Assembly: GCA_904397815.1 (NCBI GenBank)
Contig: CAJFOT010000033.1
Coordinates: 1 to 64,000, forward strand
DNA length: 64,000 nucleotides
DNA from: Candidatus Paralachnospira sangeri
Lineage (GTDB): Bacteria; Bacillota; Clostridia; Lachnospirales; Lachnospiraceae
Reading direction: 5' to 3'
Shown here: piece after piece, positions 20,293 to 47,517 of the stretch
How the letters are laid out: each line of letters opens with the position of its first letter
How positions within the stretch are numbered: position 1 is the stretch's first letter
Notes under the pieces: generated by a model
Told to the model about the DNA's origin: nothing
Database searches by the model: none
What the model saw: only the letters and a program-made list of their open reading frames with translations
Program-made: the position numbers and the translations under genes

Positions 20293-20382
20293 TTTTCCGG
20301 ACAGTCTGTTTTTTCCGGCAGAATCCTGCTATAATAAATATGCCGGTAATTACAAAATCCAGAATCCGGATGGTTAGGAGGC

Positions 20383-20826
20383 ATGATGATGCAGTTTGAA
20401 ACATTACAGAAAGATATGATTGCTGCTATGAAGGCAAAGGACAAAGTTCGGAAGGAGGCCATTTCTTCTCTGATTTCCGCGGTGAAAAAAACGGCGATCG
20501 ATGAAGGAACCCGGGACAATATCACAGAAGAACTGGTGAACCGGGTCATCCTGAAGGAAATGAAAACTGTCCAGGAACAGCTGGACAGCTGCCCGGCCGA
20601 CAGGATCGAGCTGCGGGACAGCTACCAGGCTACAATGGATGTCATTAAGGAATATGCTCCCAGGCTCCTCACCCCTGACGAGGTGCGGGCTGTCCTCAGC
20701 GAGAAATTCGCCGATGTCATCGCCACAAAGAACAAAGGCCAGATCATGAAAGCCGTTATGGGTGAGCTGAAAGGAAAGGCAGACGGGAAGGTAATTAACC
20801 AGATCGTCAGCGAAATGTGCAAATAA
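20383..20826 (+). CDS. yqeY: GatB/YqeY domain-containing protein
   Basis: DMIAAMKAKDKVRKEAISSLISAVK; NKGQIMKAVMGELKGKADGKVINQIVSE. Confidence 0.92.
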   Translation: MMMQFETLQKDMIAAMKAKDKVRKEAISSLISAVKKTAIDEGTRDNITEELVNRVILKEMKTVQEQLDSCPADRIELRDSYQATMDVIKEYAPRLLTPDEVRAVLSEKFADVIATKNKGQIMKAVMGELKGKADGKVINQIVSEMCK

Positions 20827-20836
20827 CCAGAAACCA

Positions 20837-20892
20837 GAAGGGAGCGGCCGTAAAGGCAGAATGATCTGCCGGAACGGCAGCTCCCTTCTGTT
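20837..20892. terminator. Branched bidirectional hairpin between convergent genes
   Basis: AGAAGGGAGC...GCTCCCTTCT outer stem with inner GCCGT/ACGGC and GGCAG/CTGCC stems. Confidence 0.7.
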
Positions 20893-20897
20893 CATCC

Positions 20898-23800
20898 TCA
20901 GGCCGTTTCATCATTTCTTTTCTTCCGTTTCGACACAATCATAAAGATCACGCCAGCGCTGGCTGCCAGCCCTGCCAGGCTGCCCCAGAACAGCGGCCTG
21001 TTCTGGTACCACTGAACCAGCACGTTTCGGGTGATCAGAAATACTCTGGTATCGGAATATCCCTCATTGCCGGCTGCGTCGATGGCCTTGACCGTCAGTG
21101 TCTGCCAGTCATTGGAGCTGCCGATCTCCAGCGTCACCACGCCGTTGGCAGCCGTCAGTTCCTCCTCGCTGAAGGTTTTCACCGGCACATTATCCACATA
21201 GGCCACGACTTCCGACAGGTAAATATTGTCCTTGGCATCGATGGTAACGGAACGTCTGTCGCTGCTATACTGTTCCTGATCCTCCACGCCTGTGACCACG
21301 ATTGTAGGCAATGTCGTATCCATGACAAACTGGATTTCCTTTTCCTTCACCGTATTGCTGGATCTGTTAGTTGCCCGATCCTCTGAATAGATGGTCACCG
21401 CGTAGATCCCTTCCTCTGTGAAATTATCTTCATAGATATCATAGGTATAGGATTTCCACGTGGCCTCTGTGCCGGATTCTGTCACAGCATAGTCCTCTCC
21501 CTGCTCCATCGTCACAATATCGCCGTCCCGGCTGTAGGTGATCTCCCGGAACTCCAGCGTATCCACATTGATCTCTGTCACATGGAGACGGGCTGGCTCA
21601 TTCACGTAATACTGGGACAGCAGCTGTTCCGTCGCCTCATCAAAAATGTACACAGAGCCGAAGCGGTTGACGGAAAAAGTCACTGTCTGTTCTGACGTAT
21701 TTCCTGCCAGATCAGTCACTGTCGCATGAAGGGTATACAGATCATCCAGCTCCTGTACTCTGGGAAAGTCTGTATACTGCACCATCATGCCGCCGTCAAT
21801 GGCCGTCGATGTGGTTTCCACCTCTGTCGGGCCGCGGTTTACTCCTGTCAGCTCCAGCAGGATTCCATCTGTATCCAGATTGATATCCGACCAGGTGACA
21901 GCCGGGGCTACTGTATCATTATTGGCGGACATATCCTCGATATCCGTAATCTCCAGAACCGGTGCGGTCAGATCCACCACGAACTGATCTCCCTCATAGT
22001 CCGCCGCCTCATTGCCTGCCAGATCCGTATAAGATACATCAAAGGTAAATTCCCCGTCATATGTATAGTATACAGAAGCTGTATGGGTATCCCCGCTGCT
22101 GCTCCATCCGCCGACCGCCGAAAGTTCTGCCGGAGCGCCGCCGCTGGCAGCTGTAGTGGTGATCCTCACATCAGCCGGATTGAAGTTATGCTCAGATATG
22201 GTGATAGTCCCGACACGGGCCTCTCTGTAATAAAATCCATTTCTGGCATCATTATTGTCATAGGTAACTGTCATCTCCGGCAGAGTCAGATCCACTGTAA
22301 AGGGATCTGTGGTCACCAGTTCAGACTGGTTCCCTGCCCGGTCTGTACACTGGAAAGCCAGAGAATAATCTCCGTCCTCTCCAAATATCACATTTGCCTC
22401 GTAAACACAGCCGTCCACATGATAAGTCAGTTCATTCTCACAGCCTCCGCCGCCGATATGGCTCCACTCTCCGATCACCGGCTGCGGGCCTGTCGTCTCG
22501 ATCATAAACTCCACTTCCTCCGGGTCGAAGGAACGGTCTGTCACACGGACAGCAGCTGTGCGAACCTGGTTATAATATCTCTCATTCTCCGGATCATTCA
22601 GGTCATAGATGATCTCCACCTCCGGCACTGTCGTATCCACTACAAAATGAGACCTCGCCGGCACTTCCGCCTCATGTCCCACAACGTCCCGGGCAGTGCA
22701 GGTAAACTGATAGGTTCCCTGGGCTTCGAAGGTGACATGATTTACATGTACATCTTCTCCTTCCGCTGTCCATTCACCGTCCCAGTTGATCGCCATTCCT
22801 TCATTATTGCCAGAGGCTCTTCCGACTGCGTCAATTTCTACCATGGAAGGGTCAAAGTTCGCCTCAGTAATCCTGACAGTCGCCACTACTGTTCCGTCGT
22901 AGAAATTGCCTTCTGTAATTTCTCCTGTGATATCCTGTCCATCATGGGTATATGTAATCTCAATCACCGGAGCTGTCGTATCCATCACCAGATAATAACT
23001 GGTGAATATACCGCCGGCCACCTCTGTCCCCTCTGCTCCTGTCATCACATTGCCGGAACGGTCTGAAAACTCTCCGATAGAGAACCGGTACCGCCCGTCG
23101 CCAGGCGCGTGGACACTGCTGGTATATGTGGTGCCGCTTCCGCTCCACTGGCTGTGGTTCAGCGCCCCGGGCGCTTCCGGTGCCTGCAGATTGATGGTGG
23201 CATCCACATCAGCTTCATAGAAATACCGTTCACGGAAACTGATGGTTACCGCCGGATCCTCACGATAAAAATAGGTATTCGGGTACAGACTGTTTTCCAC
23301 ATAGCTGCCGGGATGATAATCAACCGTCAGCTCCGGCGCCATATTATCCAGAACATACTGCACCTCATCCCGCAGCACCTCTCCTTCCGCCGGCGTCTGA
23401 TTGCCCGCATTGTCGTAGATCACGATTTCTTCGATGGCATTCTGGAACTCTGACAGGTCGCCGTTGGTCCATCTGATCTGGAAGGTAAACTCCAGATATT
23501 CCTGGCCGTTGATCTCTGCTACCTGTACCTCCTGATTGTTCCACTGCTCCATCACCGGTTCCCGGTTTCCGTCATGATTCACCGTCACATCCACCTTGCG
23601 GATGCCGGAAGCACAGCTGCGCTCAGCATTCTGATACAGGCCCTGTCCCAGCGTATCCTGTACATAGACTGACAGCGTTACCCACTGATTATTATATACG
23701 TAGCCTTCCTGAGCCGCTTCGTACCTTGTGCCGCTGTCTACCGCGTTGCCGTCGTAGACAGAGTCGCCTTCCCAGCTGAGCCATACCCGGTTCACCGGCA

Positions 23801-26800
23801 TGTCATTGTCGATCCGTACTCTGCTGCCTGCGTCGCCTGACTCATTCCGGTAAAACAAAGCCTGGTTTCCCGCCCAGTCGGTGGCAATCACCGCATACAG
23901 CTGATCCTGATTATCAGTAAAAGATTCTGTTCTGGAAATCTCCCGGATGACCTGCCCGCTGTTCAGCGTCTGTCCGATCTGTGTATACGCTCCCTCCTGT
24001 CCCAGCACAGGCGTGTCTGTATTGGCCCGATACCATGTAATGCCGTAAATACAGTAATCATCCTGTACCGTAGCCTGGATATCCTTCGGACCATTCTGAG
24101 CGGAATACCAGGCAGTCAGGTTTCCATTCCCATCCGTCACGCTGTTTCTTCCGCTGACTGTAGCAAATACCCCTTCTGCGGGGACTTCTTTGTCAATCAC
24201 TGCGGTCAGGCTGCCCAGGCCGCCGGCTGTGTAAGAATATACCATACTGTTTCCCGCATAATCGGTAATGGTAATTGCCTCCAGCACATAAGTTTCTGTC
24301 TGGTTTTCTCCTGCAGTCAGAATCGTAGTGTAAATGCCATTTCCATCAGAAGTCAGGCTGACAGCCTCCCTGCCGTCCGCAAAAGTGAGTACCACATCCT
24401 GCACACCGGAGGCAATCCCATTCTCCCGGTATAATACCGGCAGATCCTCAGCATTTACCGTCAGCAGGATATCCTCGGCGCTGATCAGGCTGCGGTCAGC
24501 CAGATAGCTTCCTATGTCGTCATGGAGAATTGTCTGCTTCCCACTGCTGGTCTTTACATTGCGGATGTCATATGTCAGCAGCAGCTTTTCATCACTGTTT
24601 TCAGCAATCTGAGGCTTCTGGTTATCAATCTTCACGATGCTGGCCCGGTCTGACAGGATGGCTTCTGATGAATCATCCATGATATAAACAGTCACATTTC
24701 CTGCCCAGTCAGTGACCTGTACCGCGTATCGCTGCACCTGGTCTGCCTGGTATGTCAGGCAGCTGGATGCCGTCTGGCTGCTCTCATTTCCGGTCAGCCG
24801 CCCGGGCACGCTGTCTGCCCCTCCCGGCTGCTCCGCCGTTACAGGCGTATAGATCAGGCTGCCGCTGCCGTCATCATCTGCCATAAACCAGTCGATGGCG
24901 TAAATGCCGTAATCATCCTCGGCGGAGGCTGTGACCGCAAAGGGTGTATCCCCGTTTACCGCTACAGAGTACCATTCCCGCCAGGTTCCGCCGGCATTGT
25001 AGCTTCTGTCGGCAAAGGATGCCTCCGGTACTGTCCGGTCGATCACCACAGTCAGTTCACCCTGATACAGGGAGCTGTCTGCTGCCTCGCCGGCTTCCTG
25101 ATATTGATATACAGTCACATTTCCCGCATAATCTGTCACAGCGATCTGCTTCAGCTCATATCTTCCTTCATCAGATAAAACATAGGTATAGCTGCCGTCT
25201 GTCTGCTGTGTCAGTGTATATACCTTCGTCTCAGCAGCGCCTCCCTGACCTGCCCCATAATCCAGAGAAAGAGCCACCTCCCGGATGCCGGAAGCTGTCT
25301 GTCTCTGAACGGCACCGGCGGCAGGGTCTTCCAGATCAATAGAAACCGTCACATCTGTTTTGCTGAGCAATACGCCGTTGACCATGGTCTCCTGATCCAG
25401 ATCCCCATGGAAGACTGTCTCCGTCTTTCCCTCTGTTTTGATGTTTGTAAAATCATAGCGCAGAGAAGGTTTTCCTTCCCGGTCTGCCATCACCGGATCC
25501 GTCTCATCAATCCGTATTTCCACACTGTCAGACCAGGTGGCGTTCCCGGCCGCGTCTGTAATCTTCACAATATAGTACAGCTTCTGGTCCGGCGCTTTCG
25601 TGCTGTCTTCCCTGTTATACACCCAGGACTGGAAGGAAACACCGTAGTCAGGGCTTACCTCCAGAGCTGTGCCGTAGGTTTCTGTGCTGCTGTTAACCTC
25701 ATCAGCGCTGGCGGCCTGATAGATTTCCGCTGTCAGAGGGGTATCATCCTTTGCTGTAACCGTAAACCGGAATCCCGCCTGACCGCCGCTGTACCAGTAC
25801 TCCTCCGTACCGGTCTGGCCGCTGCCGTTCCACTGAATCACAATATCCTCTTTCGCCGGCGCTTTTTTATCGATTCTGATTACCGGATTGCTTGTGGCTC
25901 CTTCTGTGGTATAGAGATAAGCTGTATTGTTCAGCGCATCTGACAGAGCCACTGTGATGCCGGCATACCCATGATAAGTGCCATCCTGCGCGCTCAGATC
26001 AAAGATCAGCGTCTTCTGACCCTCATCCCAGGTAAATCCTTCTCCTGATGAAGTCTGAAAATTCCATGTATAAGTTTTTGCAGTCTGACCGGCTCCCTCA
26101 TCCTCCTGGCAGCTGACTGTCACTGTGCCCAGACCGGCGCCGCCGTCAGACATGCCGCTGATCACCAGACGGAAATCCTGTGGAGAAATATATTCCGTTT
26201 TCCCATCTGTCACTTCCGTATAGGTGCCTGTATCCGGATCATACCGCTCCAGCCTCATGGAAGCTGTAGGAAGCTCATTGTCCAGCCGGGCATTGTAAGT
26301 AAAAGGAGCAGAAACGTTCCCATAGCTGTCTGCGGCTGTAATGACATAATCCCGGTTCAGCACCTTCGCGTCTCCCGTGGACAGCTCCCACTTGCACCAG
26401 GAAGAGCCTTCGGACACCGTTATATCTGTTCCGCTTATCACAGAATCGTCTGTCAGCGTTCCGTCAGCGTTCTGATATTTGATGGTGATGGAAGAGACAT
26501 CCACGGATGATGTGACAATCCTGTATGTTTTCGTCCCATTTTCCGGCTTTGTCCATGCGCCATTATCCTCTGCAGATTCTACCCGCAGAGACTGGGGCGC
26601 CACAGTGTCCACCATCAGCGTCCGGTTTCCCAGCATATAATTGGTGGAATTTCCCGCCGAATCCCAGGCAGTCAGCTGCATCAGGGTCAGCTGTACGCCG
26701 TCTTTCCCGTCTGTGGAAAAATCACGGAAAACCCATTGTCCTTGTCCTGTCCCGCTCTCATTCTCATAAACGCCGTCAACTGTCTGCTCCTGCCCGCCTT

Positions 26801-28298
26801 CATACTGTATGGCCAGCGTTACTGAAGTCACTGATCCTATGCCATCAGCAACATCGGATATTTTTACAGCCAGTCCATGATTTGTGGTAATGGAAGCGTC
26901 TGTGAGATCTGTCAGTTCCTTCTCGCTGCTGTCAAAGGCCACCTGCCAGAACGTAACGGTTCCTGCTTCCAGAGCGGGCCCCTTTCGGTCAATCGGATGA
27001 TTCAGCGTCACAGTGGCACTGTAGGGCTGGCCATTGTCCATTCCGGACAGTGTCAGTTTCGCGCCAGACTGATATTCCTTTCCATCCAGATCCAGGATTG
27101 TTTCTCCGCTGATATTTCCTGTCAGTTCCTGCGGCGCGTTATCCGGCGTCTCAGCTTCCAGGGTATAGGAAGTAAAATTGTTTCCCTCTGCGTCAGAATA
27201 CAGCGTTATTCCCGTAATGTACTGGCCGGATGTGTCATAGGTCAGCGCATAGTCCTTTTCTGTAGCCGTAAGGTTTCCTACAGACAGGGAAGTAAAATCT
27301 GCCGATGTCTGTATCGTCTTTTCTCCCTTTGTCAGCACAGCAGCGGCAGTCAGGGAGAAGGTTTTTCCAGCCGCGCTCAATGGGATATGAATCTGTCCGC
27401 TCTGATCCACAGTAACACCTGCGTCGTTCTGAGAAATCGACCAGCTGATTCCATATCCCCGGTTATCCTCCGGAGAAACCAGGGTCACTGTTGACCCGGG
27501 AGCCAGACCGGTTCCTGAGCCGGTATCCAGAAAGCTGTTCTGCGCCTCCAGGTCCGCCTTCAGCTCATCGGCTGTCCACATCTTCCGGAAAGATACATGA
27601 ACAGATACCCCATCCTCCATCTCGGGATAAGTGGACTGCCTGATTTCCACAGGATTCCCATTCGTGAAAATGTCAATATCAGCAAACTCCTTTTCTTCCG
27701 ATCCGCCCGCCGGCGTCAGTTTGCAGGAATCCACATAATAACCTGCCCCAGGCGTTATGGTGACCCCACTGATCTTCTGTGTATTGTTCGCACTGCCGAC
27801 AGTCAGCGTCTCCATTCCTGCCATCACACTGACAGAACCGCCTTCCCCCGCAATAATGGTGACGGGCCTGAGCTTTTTCAGAGAAATACCGCGTTCCCAT
27901 CTGCCTCCCTGAACCTCGCTGAAAGCAAATTGGACTGTTTCTGTTTGATATCCATCCAGTGACACCGTCAATTCGCCCATACTTTCTTCCGTTACCGATA
28001 CTGTAGCTTCATACATCCCGTCACTGGTGTGAGACAGCTTTACCGGTTCATTACTTTCAGATAAAAAACTTACATCCGCATTTGCAACCGCGGCGCCATC
28101 TTCATCTGTGACACGAACCGATATTTCCACAGACGCCTCCGCTGCAGTCAGCAAATTGTTGCCGCTCAGGGATTCTGTCTCCCCATCACCCATCGCAATC
28201 GCCGCAAAGGGCGAGAAGTCCACTGCGGTTACAAGAAGCGCCAGCACCAGTAAAATGCCAAAAATCCGCCGGTATTTTCCGGCCCATACATGCTTCAC
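20898..28298 (-). CDS. Giant (2466 aa) secreted, membrane-anchored protein with many Ig-like/bacterial surface repeats
   Basis: Signal peptide (RRIFGILLVLALLVTAVDFSPFAAIAM), repeated VDTTxPxxEI...D.AGN modules, C-terminal TM plus KRKKR. Confidence 0.88.
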   Translation of the reverse strand: MKHVWAGKYRRIFGILLVLALLVTAVDFSPFAAIAMGDGETESLSGNNLLTAAEASVEISVRVTDEDGAAVANADVSFLSESNEPVKLSHTSDGMYEATVSVTEESMGELTVSLDGYQTETVQFAFSEVQGGRWERGISLKKLRPVTIIAGEGGSVSVMAGMETLTVGSANNTQKISGVTITPGAGYYVDSCKLTPAGGSEEKEFADIDIFTNGNPVEIRQSTYPEMEDGVSVHVSFRKMWTADELKADLEAQNSFLDTGSGTGLAPGSTVTLVSPEDNRGYGISWSISQNDAGVTVDQSGQIHIPLSAAGKTFSLTAAAVLTKGEKTIQTSADFTSLSVGNLTATEKDYALTYDTSGQYITGITLYSDAEGNNFTSYTLEAETPDNAPQELTGNISGETILDLDGKEYQSGAKLTLSGMDNGQPYSATVTLNHPIDRKGPALEAGTVTFWQVAFDSSEKELTDLTDASITTNHGLAVKISDVADGIGSVTSVTLAIQYEGGQEQTVDGVYENESGTGQGQWVFRDFSTDGKDGVQLTLMQLTAWDSAGNSTNYMLGNRTLMVDTVAPQSLRVESAEDNGAWTKPENGTKTYRIVTSSVDVSSITIKYQNADGTLTDDSVISGTDITVSEGSSWCKWELSTGDAKVLNRDYVITAADSYGNVSAPFTYNARLDNELPTASMRLERYDPDTGTYTEVTDGKTEYISPQDFRLVISGMSDGGAGLGTVTVSCQEDEGAGQTAKTYTWNFQTSSGEGFTWDEGQKTLIFDLSAQDGTYHGYAGITVALSDALNNTAYLYTTEGATSNPVIRIDKKAPAKEDIVIQWNGSGQTGTEEYWYSGGQAGFRFTVTAKDDTPLTAEIYQAASADEVNSSTETYGTALEVSPDYGVSFQSWVYNREDSTKAPDQKLYYIVKITDAAGNATWSDSVEIRIDETDPVMADREGKPSLRYDFTNIKTEGKTETVFHGDLDQETMVNGVLLSKTDVTVSIDLEDPAAGAVQRQTASGIREVALSLDYGAGQGGAAETKVYTLTQQTDGSYTYVLSDEGRYELKQIAVTDYAGNVTVYQYQEAGEAADSSLYQGELTVVIDRTVPEASFADRSYNAGGTWREWYSVAVNGDTPFAVTASAEDDYGIYAIDWFMADDDGSGSLIYTPVTAEQPGGADSVPGRLTGNESSQTASSCLTYQADQVQRYAVQVTDWAGNVTVYIMDDSSEAILSDRASIVKIDNQKPQIAENSDEKLLLTYDIRNVKTSSGKQTILHDDIGSYLADRSLISAEDILLTVNAEDLPVLYRENGIASGVQDVVLTFADGREAVSLTSDGNGIYTTILTAGENQTETYVLEAITITDYAGNSMVYSYTAGGLGSLTAVIDKEVPAEGVFATVSGRNSVTDGNGNLTAWYSAQNGPKDIQATVQDDYCIYGITWYRANTDTPVLGQEGAYTQIGQTLNSGQVIREISRTESFTDNQDQLYAVIATDWAGNQALFYRNESGDAGSRVRIDNDMPVNRVWLSWEGDSVYDGNAVDSGTRYEAAQEGYVYNNQWVTLSVYVQDTLGQGLYQNAERSCASGIRKVDVTVNHDGNREPVMEQWNNQEVQVAEINGQEYLEFTFQIRWTNGDLSEFQNAIEEIVIYDNAGNQTPAEGEVLRDEVQYVLDNMAPELTVDYHPGSYVENSLYPNTYFYREDPAVTISFRERYFYEADVDATINLQAPEAPGALNHSQWSGSGTTYTSSVHAPGDGRYRFSIGEFSDRSGNVMTGAEGTEVAGGIFTSYYLVMDTTAPVIEITYTHDGQDITGEITEGNFYDGTVVATVRITEANFDPSMVEIDAVGRASGNNEGMAINWDGEWTAEGEDVHVNHVTFEAQGTYQFTCTARDVVGHEAEVPARSHFVVDTTVPEVEIIYDLNDPENERYYNQVRTAAVRVTDRSFDPEEVEFMIETTGPQPVIGEWSHIGGGGCENELTYHVDGCVYEANVIFGEDGDYSLAFQCTDRAGNQSELVTTDPFTVDLTLPEMTVTYDNNDARNGFYYREARVGTITISEHNFNPADVRITTTAASGGAPAELSAVGGWSSSGDTHTASVYYTYDGEFTFDVSYTDLAGNEAADYEGDQFVVDLTAPVLEITDIEDMSANNDTVAPAVTWSDINLDTDGILLELTGVNRGPTEVETTSTAIDGGMMVQYTDFPRVQELDDLYTLHATVTDLAGNTSEQTVTFSVNRFGSVYIFDEATEQLLSQYYVNEPARLHVTEINVDTLEFREITYSRDGDIVTMEQGEDYAVTESGTEATWKSYTYDIYEDNFTEEGIYAVTIYSEDRATNRSSNTVKEKEIQFVMDTTLPTIVVTGVEDQEQYSSDRRSVTIDAKDNIYLSEVVAYVDNVPVKTFSEEELTAANGVVTLEIGSSNDWQTLTVKAIDAAGNEGYSDTRVFLITRNVLVQWYQNRPLFWGSLAGLAASAGVIFMIVSKRKKRNDETA

Positions 28299-28313
28299 CT
28301 GTATCTCCTCCTT

Positions 28314-28688
28314 TTATATACTCTCATCCGTATGGATCATCATAATATCTGTTTCTATGACAAACTGCCCAATCTGAATCTTTTCATCTTCCTCCAGAGG
28401 CATCGTAATATTCCCGTCAGAATAATCATGGACATGTACAGCCCGGCGATACCTGCCCATTCTCTGCATGCGTTCCCTGGCTGCGTTTTCGGCCTCCAGA
28501 CGGCGTATCCCTTTTTTAGCGGCACTGCCGGACCAGATTCTGAGAATCTGCATCATATCCAGCAAAAAGAATTCTGCCACAGCGGCAATCAGCAGTATCA
28601 CCGCAAAGATCAGAAAAACCAGGCTGATACTGTGAAACATCTCTATCCTGCCCTGAATCTCCTCCATGGAGCTCAACAGCATTGCCAT
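28314..28688 (-). CDS. Small single-TM membrane protein of the kinase operon
   Basis: MAMLLSSMEEIQGRIEMFHSISLVFLIFAVILLIAAVAEFFLL...; ATG at 28688, 1 nt after the kinase stop (28690..28692). Confidence 0.75.
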   Translation of the reverse strand: MAMLLSSMEEIQGRIEMFHSISLVFLIFAVILLIAAVAEFFLLDMMQILRIWSGSAAKKGIRRLEAENAARERMQRMGRYRRAVHVHDYSDGNITMPLEEDEKIQIGQFVIETDIMMIHTDESI

Positions 28689-28689
28689 A

Positions 28690-30399
28690 TTAACTCTCAC
28701 CGCCTTCCGTTCTGGCCTCAAATACTGCCAGAACCTGACGTCTGGCCTGTTCCAGATTTTCATATAATCGTTCTTTCAGTTCCGTGTTCCGGTCACGGTT
28801 CACATCATCAGCGATCACAATGTCCGAATCCAGGTGCTGGCGTACATATTCCAGCTCATCCAACATTTCCTTCTGGCTTACGCCATCTGCCCTGAAATCT
28901 GCCGCATGGTTGTATACCTGATAAATCAGTTCCTTATAGACCATCATGGCAGTTGTGACATTATCAGCTTCCGCAATATTGCCCATGGCCAGACTCACCA
29001 GGTCATTCCAGTAGTCCTGATAGCCGGTGTTGGCGTCTCCATACTTATTGGCTACGCCGATCCTGGAATAATATTCTGATATCTGAGACAGCTTTTCAGC
29101 CCGCTCGACCATATTCGCCTCCAGACTGCCAGATTCTGAGGCGATCCGCAGCCACTTGGCAGACATGGATTTATTGCCGCTGCTCTCATAGGAATAGAAA
29201 TAGGCCAGTCCCATCCGATAGGCAAACTCCTCATAGGCCGCCGTATTTTCCGCAAATATCTCTTCATTCTTCCTGTTTCCCGAACTGCTCTCATTCAGCA
29301 GCTGGCGCATCAGCTGGTCTTCTTCTGAAGTTAAATTGTCATCCGCCAGAAATACATTTTCCAACAGTTCCATCCAGGCGTCTGGCTGCCCGGGCTCCAG
29401 ACTGACCGCCTGGGCATAGGCCTGGGCCGCTTCCTCTTCTGTGGCGCTGCCCTCTCCCTCCAGCATATAAGAATCGTAACTGTTGGCTGTGATACTTTTC
29501 TGAGCCAGGCTGGTTCCCAGAGAAATGCCCGCGCATACCAGACAGAGAGCCGATGTGGCGAAAAAAAGGGTCAGTTTTTTCTTCCGCTGTCTGGTATTTT
29601 CAATGTCCAGATCCTGGTAATGCTCCAGGTCGTACATCAGCTGGGCACATGTCTGATACCGGTCTTCCGGTGAGGGGCTCGTGCATTTCAGTATAATCCG
29701 TTCCAGACCCGTAGACAGGGCAGGGTTGCGGCGGCGGATCCGGTAGTCCTGCCCCACCGCCGGACGTTCTCCTGTCAGAAGATGGTACATGGTAGCGCCC
29801 AGACAGTATATATCTGTTCTGGCGTCTGTCTGCCGGGCTGCGTCATACTGCTCGGGAGCCGCATATCCTCTGGTACCCAGACAGGTAGTATCTGCCGCAT
29901 TTCCCGATTTGTACTCCCGGGCTGTTCCAAAATCAAAGAGTACCACCGTTCCGTCAGGACGGAGCATCACATTGGACGGCTTCATATCCCGGTAGATAAT
30001 CGGAGGCACTCTGGAGTGAAGATATCCCAGCACATCGCAGAGCTGAATCGCCCACTCGATCACCATATCCTGGGGCTGGGTCCCCTCCTCTTCCAGTGTC
30101 CACTCCAGCGTATTTCCCTCTATATAATCCATGACGATCAGGAACCGACCTTCCTCGTCTATGACATCGATAATGCTGGGCAGATTAGGATGATTCAGCT
30201 TTTTCAGAATATTGGTTTCCGCGATCAGCCCCTGCTGTACTACCTCAAAATCCTGCACGCCGTCCTTGCGCACCTCTTTGATCGCCCACTGCTTGTTCGC
30301 CCGTTCATTCATCGCCAGGTAGACGATGCTCATGCCGCCCTGACCGATTTTATTCAGGATTTTATATTTTCCGTCTATTATGGTACCAATTTCCAGCAT
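28690..30399 (-). CDS. Membrane Ser/Thr protein kinase with TPR-like extracellular C-terminus
   Basis: KIGQGGMSIVYLA, AIKEV, IIYRDMKPSNVML, LFDFGTARE, GTRGYAAPEQ; TM LTLFFATSALCLVCAGISLG; no PASTA repeats. Confidence 0.92.
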   Translation of the reverse strand: MLEIGTIIDGKYKILNKIGQGGMSIVYLAMNERANKQWAIKEVRKDGVQDFEVVQQGLIAETNILKKLNHPNLPSIIDVIDEEGRFLIVMDYIEGNTLEWTLEEEGTQPQDMVIEWAIQLCDVLGYLHSRVPPIIYRDMKPSNVMLRPDGTVVLFDFGTAREYKSGNAADTTCLGTRGYAAPEQYDAARQTDARTDIYCLGATMYHLLTGERPAVGQDYRIRRRNPALSTGLERIILKCTSPSPEDRYQTCAQLMYDLEHYQDLDIENTRQRKKKLTLFFATSALCLVCAGISLGTSLAQKSITANSYDSYMLEGEGSATEEEAAQAYAQAVSLEPGQPDAWMELLENVFLADDNLTSEEDQLMRQLLNESSSGNRKNEEIFAENTAAYEEFAYRMGLAYFYSYESSGNKSMSAKWLRIASESGSLEANMVERAEKLSQISEYYSRIGVANKYGDANTGYQDYWNDLVSLAMGNIAEADNVTTAMMVYKELIYQVYNHAADFRADGVSQKEMLDELEYVRQHLDSDIVIADDVNRDRNTELKERLYENLEQARRQVLAVFEARTEGGES

Positions 30400-30412
30400 A
30401 TCCCTGCTCCCC

Positions 30413-31180
30413 CTAATATACATGAATCAGTGCCGCTGAAATATTGTCTTCCTCACGGCGGCTTTTGTTTAATTCAATCATCGAACGCAGGTTGTCACTC
30501 ATAGACTGCTCAGACCCCACCACCATCGGACCCAGCTTTTCCAGCATCTCCTGCCGGCTGATCTGATGCCGGAAGCCGTCGCTGCAAAGCAGGAAGCTGC
30601 AAGGCGTTTCAATATTCCCCATGTAAAAATCCGGATCGATTACTGTCGAAGCACCGACGCACTGGAGCAGCACATTCCTTCGTGGATCACGCCGGGCCTT
30701 CTCCGGGGTCAGCCTGCCTAGATCCATCTCCTGCTGGATGACCGTCTGGTCCTTCGTCAACTGCCGTATGGAAGTATTCAGCAGATAAGCCCTTGAATCG
30801 CCAACGTTAATCACATAATACATATTTCCCACTACCAGCAATGCCACAACGGTGGTTCCCAGCTTTACACGGTGCTCTCTGCTGTAGGCGCCCAGCCGGC
30901 AGTTGGCCTCATAGATCAGCTGTTCCCAGTTTTTCTTCAAAATCTCCGGCACAATTCCCCTGTATAATATATCGGGGAATTCCTTTTCAAACCACCCTGA
31001 AAGTATCCGGATCAGAGAGGCACTGGCCAGCTCTCCTTTCGCCAGCCCTCCCATTCCGTCACATACAGCCGCGAAGCAGACCTTTCCGCAATCCGTCCGG
31101 GCTGTTTTGATCATCAGGGCATCCTGATTGATTTGTTTTTTAATGCCGGCATCACTGCAGGCAGCTGTCATAAAATTCAT
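30413..31180 (-). CDS. PP2C-family Ser/Thr protein phosphatase
   Basis: AAVCDGMGGLAKGELAS, INVGDSRAYLL, LLCSDGFRHQIS, DNISAALIHVY; ATG at 31180 in RBS context (track ORF starts at 31207). Confidence 0.92.
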   Translation of the reverse strand: MNFMTAACSDAGIKKQINQDALMIKTARTDCGKVCFAAVCDGMGGLAKGELASASLIRILSGWFEKEFPDILYRGIVPEILKKNWEQLIYEANCRLGAYSREHRVKLGTTVVALLVVGNMYYVINVGDSRAYLLNTSIRQLTKDQTVIQQEMDLGRLTPEKARRDPRRNVLLQCVGASTVIDPDFYMGNIETPCSFLLCSDGFRHQISRQEMLEKLGPMVVGSEQSMSDNLRSMIELNKSRREEDNISAALIHVY

Positions 31181-31643
31181 CTTCTCATCTCCATCCTGGC
31201 ATGACATCCTCCCACGCCTGAAAAAGCGGGAGGTATTCTCACGCTCAGACAGGCAATCGGTTCCCGTTCGATCGTATCAATGTACGAAGACTAATTCCGT
31301 GGGCCCGTTCATATACTGAAATTTTTCGTTCCGCAGTTTAGGCAAATCTGTCTGCCCGCAAAAATCTGTCTTTACAAGTTTTTTGCCATGTTCTTCAGAC
31401 ATCATATTGTAATTAGGCATTACACTTCTTAATTCAGCTGCTTGGCTGATTATATTTTGACTTGTATTCTTGCTGGAAGAGGATAAAAATGCAGGAATCC
31501 TGCCATGAGTTGGTTAAAGATATAAACGAATAGTGTTTCCATTATTATACATATTTTTACTTTATCTGGCAATATAATATTTCGGCAGATTTCTAAAATT
31601 TATATAAATATTTTAATAGACTTAAGAAATGTCTTCAATGTTA

Positions 31644-31671
31644 TTGCATAATTGAAAAAAAGCGCTATAAT
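31644..31671 (+). promoter_or_regulatory. Promoter of the HMA-domain gene
   Basis: TTGCAT-N16-TATAAT. Confidence 0.65.
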
Positions 31672-31684
31672 AAGAATCAGATAG

Positions 31685-31698
31685 TTAGTTTTAGCTAA
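31685..31698. promoter_or_regulatory. Candidate DtxR/IdeR-like operator
   Basis: TTAG-TTTTAG-CTAA, the same 4-6-4 geometry as TTAGGTTAGCCTAA; just downstream of the predicted start of transcription. Confidence 0.45.
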
Positions 31699-31735
31699 TT
31701 TTGTGTTGGATTTCTGCAAAAAGGAGGCCCGTAAC

Positions 31736-32089
31736 ATGGCTACATTCATTATTTGTCTGATTTTACTCTGCATCTGTATTTTTTCCGTCAAAAGCTATAT
31801 GAAGAAGCTTTCCAGAGGCTGCTGCGGCGCGGACAGCGGCAGGGGGCCGAAGAAAATCCGCATCACAGATAAGGATGTTTCCCATTATCCCTATCAGACC
31901 CGGCTGACTGTGGAGGGCATGACATGCCAGAACTGTACCACCAGAGTGGAGAATGCTCTGAACAGCCTGGGCGGGGTCTGGGCCAGTGCGGATCTGTCGA
32001 AAAATCAGGTACAGATCCGGATGAAGGAAGAGATTCCGGAAGATAAGCTGAAAGAAGTGATCCGTCAGACTGGCTATATCGCCTATTAG
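31736..32089 (+). CDS. Membrane-anchored heavy-metal-associated (HMA) domain protein
   Basis: N-terminal TM then RGCCGADSG, HMA motif GMTCQNCTTRVENAL; RBS AAGGAGG. Confidence 0.85.
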   Translation: MATFIICLILLCICIFSVKSYMKKLSRGCCGADSGRGPKKIRITDKDVSHYPYQTRLTVEGMTCQNCTTRVENALNSLGGVWASADLSKNQVQIRMKEEIPEDKLKEVIRQTGYIAY

Positions 32090-43609: not shown

Positions 43610-45367
43610 TTACAGATCAAAAAATTCAAAATCATCGTCGCCCGCTTCCTTTTCGGTCCCGCCGCCGGCTTCATGCTCGGGTTCACTCTCCATATCCGTC
43701 AGAACACTGCTCAATTCACTGGTTTTCATCTTTTCAGCTTCCCGGGCAGATACAGAAGATTCTTTCTCTTCTTCTCCGAAAGCTTCCTCAAACGTATCGT
43801 CATGGTCATAATAGCGCTCCAGATCTCTGCGGCGCTGTCTGCCGCCGCGCTCGCCTCCTGAGCCGGAAGAGCCGCCGCCCTTTCTGTTTTTCAGAATCAT
43901 CAGCACTGCAGCCGCAATCACAATCAGCACCAGCACGCCAATCACTGCATACCATACCCAGCCGGGAATCCCTTCATCAGCTCCGGTATTCCGCTGGCTC
44001 TCTGCCTCATCCAGCTTAGCCTGCAGATCCTCATCCATTTCTGTCTCGTTTTCATTGGACTGCATCACCAGCAGCGCTTCATCCGCCCGCTGCATGGTTC
44101 CTTCTTCTGAATCATATCGGTACAGATTCCGGTCGCCGTTCCAGTTCATGGCGTAAATCAGATAATAAATGCCTTCCATATCATCATTTGACTGCCATGC
44201 CCGGATATCCATCCCGTCAATTTCCACTGTCGTCTCATGATAACTGTCGGGAATAATCACACCATCATCCAGCTCCATCACTGTATACATACGGGTTCCG
44301 GTCTGAATATTCATCATCCGCGTAAAAGACTGATTTTCCTCATTATAGAGATAAAACTGCGGATTATCTCCATCCTGGTCCGTCATATAAAAGGCAATCA
44401 ATCCGCCTGCCAGACTCCGGGCTGCCTGGATCTGCTGCCCGTCATATTCATAATCTGACACCTCATAGCCCTCCGGCAGGACAACCCCGTCCAGAGATGT
44501 CACAATCAACAGGTTCTGGCCATTTACTGTAACCGAAATACTGCCTTCCTGTACTGTCTCTGACTCTGATTCTGAAGTCTCCTCTGTGGACTCTGCCGCT
44601 GTGGAACTTTCCTCTGTCTCCTCCTCCGTAGAAGCGGCCTCCATGCGCCGCACATTAATCGTATAGGTCTGGGTTGTGCTGCCGTCCTCCGCCGTCACCC
44701 GCACTGTGATGGAGTTGTCCCCCACCTCAAGATCAGTGCTGGATACGACGAACTGAGCGTTTTCGTCATTGGTTCTGGCAGTAACTGCCAGCTTTGTCAC
44801 ATCATTATTGACCTGAATATTATACTCTGTCCGGCTGGGAGAAAAGGCAGGACTCAATGTTCCCGGCGCAATCTGCAGTGCAGCAAGCGTAGCGTCACTG
44901 GAAGCGGTTTTCTCGGCATTAATGGTAATCGCTGAACTGGCGGCGCTGGAGGAAATAATATTGCCGTCCGCGTCTGCAATCTCCTGGTTTTCCACCGTTA
45001 CAGCCGTTGCGCCGGCTTTCAGCGCCCGAAACTGAAGGCTGCAGTTTAACCGTCCGGAACCTGTGGTATCATACCAGCTGATGCGGATTGTGCCGCCGGA
45101 GGCATTATAATCTCCAGGCGAAGGCACGCTGCAGGACACAAATTCCAGATAATCAGCAGGATAAAGCAGGACTGCGTCCATTGCCGCCAGTGTCGTATCT
45201 GTGGCATTAACTGTCATATTTACAGTGAAAGTTTCTCCTACCTGGCAGCTGATATCAGAAAACGAAATTCTGGCACTGCCTGCCGCCCTGGAGAGAAGTG
45301 AAAAACTGCCCGTCAGCAGGCAGACCGCCGCTGCCATCCATAATACATGTTTTAAAAATTTTTTCAT
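43610..45367 (-). CDS. Surface protein: cohesin-like domain, cadherin-like beta-sandwich, TM, long acidic cytosolic tail
   Basis: Signal peptide; ARISFSDISCQVGETFTVNMTVNATDTTLAAMDAVLLYPADYLEFVSC (cohesin-like); LAALQIAPGTLSPAFSPSRTEYNIQV; TM VWYAVIGVLVLIVIAAAVLMIL; ends DDDFEFFDL. Confidence 0.85.
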   Translation of the reverse strand: MKKFLKHVLWMAAAVCLLTGSFSLLSRAAGSARISFSDISCQVGETFTVNMTVNATDTTLAAMDAVLLYPADYLEFVSCSVPSPGDYNASGGTIRISWYDTTGSGRLNCSLQFRALKAGATAVTVENQEIADADGNIISSSAASSAITINAEKTASSDATLAALQIAPGTLSPAFSPSRTEYNIQVNNDVTKLAVTARTNDENAQFVVSSTDLEVGDNSITVRVTAEDGSTTQTYTINVRRMEAASTEEETEESSTAAESTEETSESESETVQEGSISVTVNGQNLLIVTSLDGVVLPEGYEVSDYEYDGQQIQAARSLAGGLIAFYMTDQDGDNPQFYLYNEENQSFTRMMNIQTGTRMYTVMELDDGVIIPDSYHETTVEIDGMDIRAWQSNDDMEGIYYLIYAMNWNGDRNLYRYDSEEGTMQRADEALLVMQSNENETEMDEDLQAKLDEAESQRNTGADEGIPGWVWYAVIGVLVLIVIAAAVLMILKNRKGGGSSGSGGERGGRQRRRDLERYYDHDDTFEEAFGEEEKESSVSAREAEKMKTSELSSVLTDMESEPEHEAGGGTEKEAGDDDFEFFDL

Positions 45368-45381
45368 AACGTCTCCTTACA

Positions 45382-47460
45382 TCATTGCTGAACAATATCT
45401 CCCCGCCCCAGAACGTATTTCTGAACCACCAGAAGGTCTGTGGAAGCTACCTTCCCATCGTGGTTCGCGTCGCAGGCTGTCAGATATACACTCCCCAGCT
45501 CCTGAACCTTAAGAATATGTTTCTGTATCTGCAGCAAGTCTACCGAAGATACCTTGCCGTCTCCATTGACATCACCGTAAATCAGCAGCTGATACCGGCT
45601 GACCTCCTGTCCGTTTCCGTCATAAATCACTGCCACATCTCCTGTACCTGCCATATTGGTCTCCTCTGAGCCATCGCTGTTCAGCAGACGGACACTTCCG
45701 TTCTCTACAGAAATATTATCTATGAACGCCTGAGCCGATGTAGACGGACTGATATTGGTAATCACCATGGCGCTGTCGTCAAAACGATAATTGGAACTGG
45801 TGGAAGTATCTCCTCCGCCGACAGTTTCAGAAGGCGGCGTCTCTGTGCCTTCTCCCTGTCTGGCAATATTCAGATTGTAGGTCTTTTCTGTGCCGTTCTG
45901 GGCTCTGACCGTAATCTCAAAAGAATTCATTCCCACATTCAGGCTGACTGTGCCCGTTCCTGATATGGTTGCAGTACTGTCATAAGCAGCTGCCCCGATG
46001 GTCACACTATCCACGTTTTCTTCCACAATCACACTGTACTCTGTGGTATACCGGTCAAAAACAGGAGTCAGGTCATAGTTCTCCACATACAGATCAGACA
46101 GCAGATAATTGGGACTGCCGTTGCCGGTAGGACGCTGACACTGAGTATCTGGCATATTTTCATACACTGGTATAGAAAATTCCAGAGCCGTCTGACGGGA
46201 ATCTCCGTTGTAAGCCTTTGACAGTTTCACTGCCTCCTCATAGGCTGCACCCACATTGGACATATACTGATGCTGATAGGGATTTGATCCCTGCACATTA
46301 AATTTCTTCAGATAAATAGTATTCTGCCCCACACTGACATACTGTTCTCCGTACCAGATAGCGCCGCCTACGATCGCCTTCAGGTGGCTGTTCCAGGGCC
46401 GCTGGTAAGAAGTGGCGCCGGAACCGCTGCCGCCGGCGTACCACAATCCCCGCTCCACTGCGCTCTGGGTCGTAGTTCGATAAGCCCCGATATTAAAATA
46501 ATTGAACAGACCCTCATATCCTGACACAGTGCCTGACACGGCGCTGCCGCCGGAATTTCCCACTTCCTGCAGGATTGCCGCAGCCAGCACATAAGGGCTG
46601 ACACCGGAATCCTCAGCAGCCCGGATCAGTAAGTCACTGTAGCTGTACGCAGCGCCGTCCGTATCTGTGATGGAATTGGCCAGAAACGTACCGGCCACAA
46701 TATTTGCCAGCCCCTCCTGGTTTTGCGTATTGCTGTCATAGGACTGAATCAGAAACTCAAAGATGGCTGTATCTGTCAGAAAATTTCTGGGATCCATATA
46801 ATATTCGATAATCTCCTCAGAGGCCATCACCCATCCGCCGCTGTCGAAGGTGACCCAGGTGCTGTTCTCCCAGTCATAGGCGCCGTTCTGCACAGATTTC
46901 CATGAGGAAGGACTGGTATAATTATTTACCAGATTTCTGCCCAGCACAGATTCTGCCTCAACGGATGCTGTCCAGTCCAGATTCGTGTGATAGGCTTTAA
47001 ATACCCAGTTAGGGTAAGAGGCATGAAGGGTGCGCAGCGCCGGCTTATAACTCTCGGGAAAGCCCTGCTCATTCAGATATGCCTCAAAAGCATCATCCGT
47101 CTGCGTAATCGACACATAATCGCTGCGCACAAAACCAGTGTACTCTGCGCCGTCAGAATATGTAAAGCGAATTTCATACCATAAGCTGCCGTCAGAAGCG
47201 GAAGCTTCATTGATAATCGTTACCTCTTTTCCATTAGTCAGCTGGATTCCCCCGCCGGAAGCAGCAGTCAGGACCCCATTCCCCGTCCCGGCTCCTGTGC
47301 GAACATTCACCGATGAATTTACTTTAATCACTGCTGCTTTTTCATCATAGGCCAGCCCCCGGATCACAGCCTGACTCAGACCTGCGCAGGCAGCGATCAG
47401 CAGCAGCGCTGCCAGGAAGCCTGTCATTATCCTCTTGTGTATCTCCATATCTTTATCCAT
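45382..47460 (-). CDS. SH3b / glucosaminidase / cadherin-like domain protein with C-terminal dockerin type I domain
   Basis: SVNVRTGAGTGNGVL (SH3b); ILQEVGNSGGSAVSG..GLFNYFNIGAY (glucosaminidase); GDVNGDGKVSSVDLLQIQKHILK...CDANHDGKVASTDLLVVQKYVLG (two dockerin Ca-binding repeats). ATG at 47460 chosen because the longer ORF overlaps the promoter. Confidence 0.9.
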   Translation of the reverse strand: MDKDMEIHKRIMTGFLAALLLIAACAGLSQAVIRGLAYDEKAAVIKVNSSVNVRTGAGTGNGVLTAASGGGIQLTNGKEVTIINEASASDGSLWYEIRFTYSDGAEYTGFVRSDYVSITQTDDAFEAYLNEQGFPESYKPALRTLHASYPNWVFKAYHTNLDWTASVEAESVLGRNLVNNYTSPSSWKSVQNGAYDWENSTWVTFDSGGWVMASEEIIEYYMDPRNFLTDTAIFEFLIQSYDSNTQNQEGLANIVAGTFLANSITDTDGAAYSYSDLLIRAAEDSGVSPYVLAAAILQEVGNSGGSAVSGTVSGYEGLFNYFNIGAYRTTTQSAVERGLWYAGGSGSGATSYQRPWNSHLKAIVGGAIWYGEQYVSVGQNTIYLKKFNVQGSNPYQHQYMSNVGAAYEEAVKLSKAYNGDSRQTALEFSIPVYENMPDTQCQRPTGNGSPNYLLSDLYVENYDLTPVFDRYTTEYSVIVEENVDSVTIGAAAYDSTATISGTGTVSLNVGMNSFEITVRAQNGTEKTYNLNIARQGEGTETPPSETVGGGDTSTSSNYRFDDSAMVITNISPSTSAQAFIDNISVENGSVRLLNSDGSEETNMAGTGDVAVIYDGNGQEVSRYQLLIYGDVNGDGKVSSVDLLQIQKHILKVQELGSVYLTACDANHDGKVASTDLLVVQKYVLGRGDIVQQ

Positions 47461-47488
47461 ACCCATACCTTTCCAGTTTAACATTTCT

Positions 47489-47517
47489 ATTATAAAATTA
47501 AGGATTTCTTCTGTCAA
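47489..47517 (-). promoter_or_regulatory. Consensus promoter of the dockerin-glucosaminidase gene
   Basis: Minus strand TTGACA-N17-TATAAT. Confidence 0.85.

Follow-up and report, generated by a model that had tools for sequence, protein, structure and literature searches.

A TseF-TseD-TseH-TseI-like operon in Candidatus Paralachnospira sangeri: a candidate phosphothreonine docking module found with and without a type VII secretion system

The window analysed here is a stretch of 64,000 nucleotides from Candidatus Paralachnospira sangeri (Lachnospiraceae; contig CAJFOT010000033.1, positions 1 to 64,000), and our subject is a tight minus-strand operon within it (20898-31207) that encodes, in this order, a PP2C phosphatase, a membrane Ser/Thr kinase, a small protein with one transmembrane (TM) helix and a giant protein with immunoglobulin (Ig)-like domains. 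A sequence-only reading of the window had described four same-strand genes separated by about 1 to 15 nt, which was borne out: with revised starts, the gaps are 13, 1 and 15 nt from the phosphatase gene to the giant gene. Its account of the open reading frames (ORFs) held for the four genes and failed for the length of the small TM protein, which has 124 aa from ATG 28688 instead of 125. The names attached to the products below are those of components of type VII secretion systems (T7SSs), discussed further on.
31544-31572, minus strand: candidate operon promoter, TTGCCA-17-TATAAT, sigma-70-like (11/12; a consensus match only)
30413-31207, minus strand: PP2C/PPM phosphatase, TseF-like, 264 aa (Pfam PP2C_2, 6.9e-10)
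28690-30399, minus strand: membrane Ser/Thr kinase, TseD-like, 569 aa (Pfam Pkinase, 8.6e-46)
28314-28688, minus strand: small one-TM protein, TseH-like, 124 aa (family alignment A2, 28 proteins)
20898-28298, minus strand: giant Ig-like protein, TseI-like, 2466 aa (Pfam Big_3_3, 3e-10; Big_13, 7e-9)
The candidate promoter, upstream of the PP2C gene, is the top sigma-70-like site in 20300-31900; sites internal to the operon score at most 10.

The small-protein ORF opens at 28763 and comprises 149 aa, its first part overlapping the kinase gene. ATG 28688, one base past the kinase stop, yields the 124-aa protein and agrees with its relatives. The protein matched no Pfam family. In a survey of 200 genera of the same family, in which small protein, giant protein and kinase were searched separately, a single-sequence search found small-protein homologues in 15 of the 200. 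Three features stand out in its sequence.
28560-28628, minus strand: TM helix (sequence and alignment)
28395-28406, minus strand: T-M-P-L, the sole T-x-x-L copy in the window's protein; T96 and L99 at least 90% conserved in A2
28317-28337, minus strand: conserved C-terminal IHTDESI motif (alignment A2)
T96 and L99, three residues apart, are the only columns of the tail in A2 that reach 90% conservation, and the tails of relatives carry mostly T-x-V-L, in as many as 17 copies; Bacillus marasmi and Butyrivibrio are among the relatives with several. Across 84 non-redundant small-TM proteins, T.[VI]L occurred at 213 tail sites compared with 9.7 expected from shuffles; as site counts are inflated by shared ancestry and local duplication, we also counted proteins, of which 63 of the 84 contained the motif (9.1 expected). 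The serine version was not enriched (4 versus 7.5 expected), and leucine at +4 fell below expectation (52 versus 76.7). Leucine at +2 was raised as well, in the tails by less than the motif itself and to a greater degree in the FHA linkers described below, a pattern to be expected of adjacent threonines (T-T-V-L). Module phosphatases, kinases and giant proteins showed a mild motif excess at most. FHA domains have high specificity for phosphothreonine (pThr) over phosphoserine (PMC3146460) and read the residue at pT+3 (PMC5549992), so that a threonine-specific T-x-[VI]-L with a fixed +3 position has the pattern of an FHA ligand. Judged by its sequence, the small-protein tail across the family is thus an array of T-x-[VI]-L motifs, threonine-specific as FHA pThr ligands are, and such tail arrays are new as far as could be found. 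At the family level, these conserved motifs lend support to the earlier proposal that the small TM protein serves as adaptor or substrate, and a kinase substrate or adaptor is what it likely is.

A candidate reader recurs next to the genes of relatives. Most of them also have an FHA protein, of either the DUF6382-FHA or the trypsin-TM-FHA type, which is often encoded just upstream of PP2C; FHA-PP2C-kinase-small TM-giant is the conserved fuller order. In 67 FHA linkers, the stretch ahead of the FHA domain held 100 T.[VI]L sites versus 5.7 expected, and the pThr-contact positions of module FHA domains are kept (S in 67/75, R, H and N each in 75/75). A second DUF6382 match was present in 29/40 genera with the module kinase (defined below) and in 24/160 others (p 5e-12). 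The trypsin-like partner combines an extracytoplasmic trypsin-like domain, a TM helix and a cytoplasmic part with T-x-x-L and FHA, as in this example from a relative.
L077:1718-3388: trypsin-TM-FHA protein (basis Pfam)
Further members of this cluster are encoded at L078:9483-10970, L079:13780-15327, L081:1798-3435 and L110:6123-7847, and the domain arrangement makes a phospho-regulated protease possible. At the window operon we found no TseJ-like DUF6382-FHA gene. The intergenic stretch 31208-31720 was considered as the remnant of a lost FHA gene and discarded, since none of the module proteins matched it meaningfully. In the whole genome a single FHA protein was detected, encoded at the end of the Tad pilus locus (G000:C120). 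It is of the DUF6382-FHA type, with two predicted TM helices, and has T-C-V-L and T-R-L-L.

Both putative enzymes of the switch carry their catalytic residues. The PP2C motifs QDAL, DGMGG, GDSRAY, SDGF and EEDN are all found in the window phosphatase, and K49, R145, D146, N151 and the DFG at 164-166 of the kinase are invariant in a 27-sequence alignment. The kinase ORF (28690-30423) has 577 aa and the form starting at ATG 30399 has 569 aa; the latter is the likely start, because a Shine-Dalgarno-like sequence is found there and none at 30423, and because most relatives begin MLEIG. The protein divides into three parts.
29629-30366, minus strand: catalytic domain, aa 20-265 of the 577-aa ORF (Pfam match)
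29515-29577, minus strand: TM helix, about aa 283-303 (hydropathy)
28693-29511, minus strand: ectodomain, all-helical, TPR-like at its start only (AlphaFold pLDDT 93.9; TPR sequence matches)
The sequence-only reading had stated that the kinase lacks PASTA repeats and has instead a TM helix followed by a helical, TPR-like ectodomain. The first point is confirmed: the PASTA-kinase model scores 201 bits against a cutoff of 450 and covers aa 12-280, matching the kinase domain alone. The second stands in part. Structure prediction gave a confident all-helical model, and good TPR sequence matches are limited mainly to the N-terminal hairpins, the remainder not being TPR-like. No solved fold in the PDB matched the whole ectodomain at E<0.001, and a canonical TPR superhelix was rejected on this ground. 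With PrkC/Stk1 and Stp the window pair shares adjacent PP2C and Hanks kinase genes and a kinase with one TM helix, but not the PASTA repeats; a larger, separate kinase elsewhere in the genome (783-aa open frame) is probably PrkC.

The giant gene starts at GTG 28298, preceded by AAAGGAGG, and ends at 20898. Its product has a signal peptide, Ig domains, a C-terminal TM helix and a short basic tail, and homologues were found in 51/200 genera.
20901-22100, minus strand: conserved C-terminal 400 aa with Ig domains, TM helix and tail (alignment A5; AlphaFold pLDDT 90.7)
21648-21677, minus strand: FSVNRFGSVY signature; S, N, R, G and S invariant in the 29-sequence alignment A5
20931-20993, minus strand: TM helix, then KRKKRNDETA (hydropathy and sequence)
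The top Foldseek match of the C-terminal part was to the Ig domains of SiiE (1.1e-9). Tandem bacterial Ig domains are shared with giant adhesins of the SiiE type, from which the window protein differs in its C-terminal TM anchor, its family-specific SVNRFGS signature and its linkage to a kinase gene. No LPXTG-type sortase signal lies ahead of the C-terminal TM helix and KRKKRNDETA. As the cytoplasmic tail is short (about 10 mostly basic residues) and has no T-x-x-L motif, regulation appears more likely to run through the small protein, by docking of an FHA protein there, than through the giant's own tail. By such a route the kinase may sense or control the giant protein, as the sequence-only reading proposed for the kinase/phosphatase pair.

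The linkage of giant gene and kinase held up in the survey. Among 39 genera with a strong giant match (>90 bits), 31 had the kinase on the same contig and no more than 15 kb away, and strong giant and kinase matches co-occurred among the 200 genera far beyond chance (Fisher p 5e-21). Of the remaining eight genera, G051, G090, G105 and G147 have one of the two genes near a contig end, which we read as a contig-end effect, and in G025, G054, G082 and G196 the giant homologue apparently lies away from the kinase. We examined 40 loci together with 80 named loci retrieved along with the kinase alignment. At the named loci, PP2C was upstream of the kinase in 60/70, the small TM protein came next in 53/60 and the giant was present in 52/60. 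The same order is found in Bacillus, Ornithinibacillus and Thomasclavelia, so that all four genes are linked outside the Lachnospiraceae too, and a Coriobacteriales metagenome-assembled genome has kinase, small TM protein and giant in order, without PP2C. Some relatives have additional genes here. Between the genes for small TM protein and giant, several encode a protein of about 160 aa with 3-4 predicted TM helices that is absent from the window (L077:6532-6969, L084:6945-7433, L109:8243-8749, L110:10919-11425, L107:10736-11215); its L084 copy has no Pfam match. In several relatives, a second, distinct kinase of about 630 aa when complete directly follows the giant gene (L077:15796-17691, L111:1375-3267, L120, L122, L150, L151).

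Garrett, Higginson and Palmer 2024 (PMC11217815) count among the components of T7SSd and T7SSe a kinase (D), a phosphatase (F), a protein with one TM helix (H), a large Ig-like protein (I) and a DUF6382-FHA protein (J); the cytoplasmic region of H is described there as short and unstructured, and control by phosphorylation is suggested. With the T7SSe presented there, the window set and its relatives share a TM kinase with a helical ectodomain, a PPM phosphatase, a one-TM protein with an unstructured tail, a large signal-peptide protein with Ig-like domains and a C-terminal TM helix, and a DUF6382-FHA protein as partner. TseD, TseF, TseH and TseI all have counterparts in the window, which identifies the set by its predicted features as the TseF-TseD-TseH-TseI module of T7SSe; the match is one of architecture, gene order and EssC-adjacent relatives (for example L078, L081, L111, L135 and L137), not of comparison with the published Tse sequences. 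The window differs in that no EssC (TseC) or WXG100 was found and the FHA gene is unlinked. In its own genome, EssC gave no match at E<=1e-60, and the FtsK/SpoIIIE frames of 1022, 1130 and 935 aa are not EssC-like in length. The best hit for WXG100 (TseA, TseA2) reached 19.4 bits, in a 259-aa frame, against a cutoff of 27.3. The operon's neighbours on either side are not T7SS genes.

This state is not confined to the window genome. EssC was found in 48/200 genera. A kinase cut-off of E<=1e-105 defined 40 module genera, 20 with and 20 without EssC, and EssC is commoner among them than elsewhere (p 5e-5). WXG100 exceeded the cutoff in 20/20 EssC-positive and 0/19 EssC-negative module genera, the 20th EssC-negative genus being the window genome itself, likewise with no WXG100 over the cutoff. 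The other 19 are 95-100% complete and have neither protein, so that the module does genuinely occur without a T7SS. Among named isolates, Thomasclavelia cocleata, Candidatus Soleaferrea massiliensis, Lactobacillus rogosae ATCC 27753 and Konateibacter massiliensis, for example, have the module and gave no match to EssC. On the kinase tree, modules with and without the T7SS are interleaved, and at least 8 changes of T7SS state are needed; a single T7SS-free clade was therefore rejected, and the coupling of module to T7SS has changed repeatedly. The set is not tied to a T7SS, which is new as far as could be found. In the passages of PMC11217815 consulted, neither the motif nor the set without a T7SS is described, and among open-licence papers nothing further of relevance was found on the motif or on a link between Tad, FHA and kinase.

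Together, these data suggest a model in which the TseF-TseD-TseH-TseI module probably works by reversible phosphorylation of T-x-x-L threonines on the small protein, creating FHA docking sites in the neighbourhood of a giant Ig protein that spans the envelope. Kinase activity would be set by an envelope signal acting on the helical ectodomain, the kinase would phosphorylate the threonines in the cytoplasmic tail, an FHA-domain protein would dock on the phosphorylated small protein and the phosphatase would reset the state. Docking would act as a gate on a secretion or pilus machine, controlling its assembly or its activity, with the giant Ig protein as the extracellular arm of that machine. 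For phosphorylation of the motifs, FHA binding and the gating, the inference rests on the precedent of the type VI secretion system (T6SS), which PpkA and Fha control and in which Fha binds pThr14 of the membrane protein TssL (PMC3953482). A TM kinase, a PP2C phosphatase and an FHA protein are common to both, and the triggering of secretion by FHA-pThr binding on a membrane component is a feature of the T6SS PpkA-PppA-Fha pathway (PMC3953482). The T6SS belongs to another envelope type and another machine, and the present module differs in having a dedicated small protein, on which the motif is repeated many times, and a giant Ig protein in the operon. In GarA and OdhI of Actinobacteria, a threonine motif just before the FHA domain is the target of a Hanks kinase; these proteins regulate metabolism, with no membrane scaffold or giant protein.

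Several points weigh against this model. Phosphorylation and binding are predictions; the window copy is minimal, with a single degenerate motif (T-M-P-L), no FHA gene adjoining the small-protein operon and no EssC or WXG100 detected; and the genome's own FHA protein has Q where SRxHA usually has H. The genome is 84% complete, so that the assembly may simply not include an existing FHA or T7SS locus, and the nearest relatives of the window kinase sit in T7SS-positive genera. If the window module acts through an FHA protein, the sole detected candidate would be the one in the Tad locus, and a pairing of the two is conceivable. Here too a point counts against us: in most Tad-locus DUF6382-FHA proteins (L200-L239), one T-x-x-L lies some 50 aa ahead of the FHA SRxH whether or not the module is present, which does not single out a link between this module and Tad. 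The notion that these proteins are richer in motifs where the module is present was rejected (20 versus 21 motifs in 20 proteins each).

At many loci the module directly follows Tad genes, with or without a T7SS in the genome, and this too is new as far as could be found. The Tad genes lie directly upstream and co-directional and encode DUF5702, TadE and prepilin peptidase, sometimes with TadZ, CpaF, TadB and TadC, also in isolates without an EssC match such as Thomasclavelia cocleata and Lactobacillus rogosae ATCC 27753. The module might then be a portable phospho-switch whose FHA adaptors, by reading phosphorylated T-x-V-L, connect it to two or more envelope machines that are unrelated, the T7SS and Tad-type pili, and would act here via the Tad-locus FHA protein; we regard this broader version as possible but would not wager on it. 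A tentative alternative is that the module serves the Tad pilus as such, FHA docking connecting Tad assembly or tip display with the giant and the small TM protein. The adjacency speaks for it, as does the position of the genome's only detected FHA protein, with its two motifs. However, Tad is present in 192/200 genera, so that its presence is uninformative and only adjacency counts; in the window genome no Tad genes flank the module and the Tad locus is on a different contig; and the motif of the Tad FHA protein also occurs in module-free genera. The record Lactobacillus rogosae ATCC 27753 (L153, FONU01000004.1) carries a Lachnospiraceae-type module and Tad genes, which fits the known misnaming of this record.

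Unlikely, by comparison with the docking model, is an ordinary T7SSe, with its genes for EssC, WXG100 and FHA proteins in the 16% that the assembly lacks. The closest kinase relatives, 54-55% identical to the window kinase, are those of T7SS-positive genera G147, G148 and G090, and the enrichment of EssC among module genera and the incomplete genome fit as well. Against this, both EssC and WXG100 over cutoff are absent from the assembly, the flanking genes do not belong to a T7SS and the 19 near-complete genera lack the two proteins. We consider it doubtful that the operon is a degenerating remnant with machine lost, tail shrunken and little function left: a single degenerate motif where relatives have as many as 17, and the lack of a linked FHA gene, speak for one, but all four genes are intact, including the 7.4-kb ORF, as are the catalytic motifs, and the small protein retains both its C-terminal motif and the T and L of its one T-x-x-L. 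A sensing kinase-phosphatase pair merely adjacent to a functionally uncoupled adhesin is highly improbable, since the four genera in which the giant lies apart from the kinase are outweighed by linkage in 31/39 genera and by the same order in other Bacillota orders and the Coriobacteriales genome.

Elsewhere in the window, 43610-47517 on the minus strand holds a separate gene pair. One product has 711 aa and is dockerin, cadherin-like and weakly SagB-like glucosaminidase in its matches, and the other, of 585 aa, is cadherin-like.

Overall, a gene set recorded until now only among T7SS components often occurs without any T7SS core and at many loci beside Tad genes, and needs another explanation. 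The T-x-V-L arrays offer a concrete and cheap handle on how kinase, phosphatase and FHA proteins may control uncharacterised envelope machines that are common in gut Lachnospiraceae.

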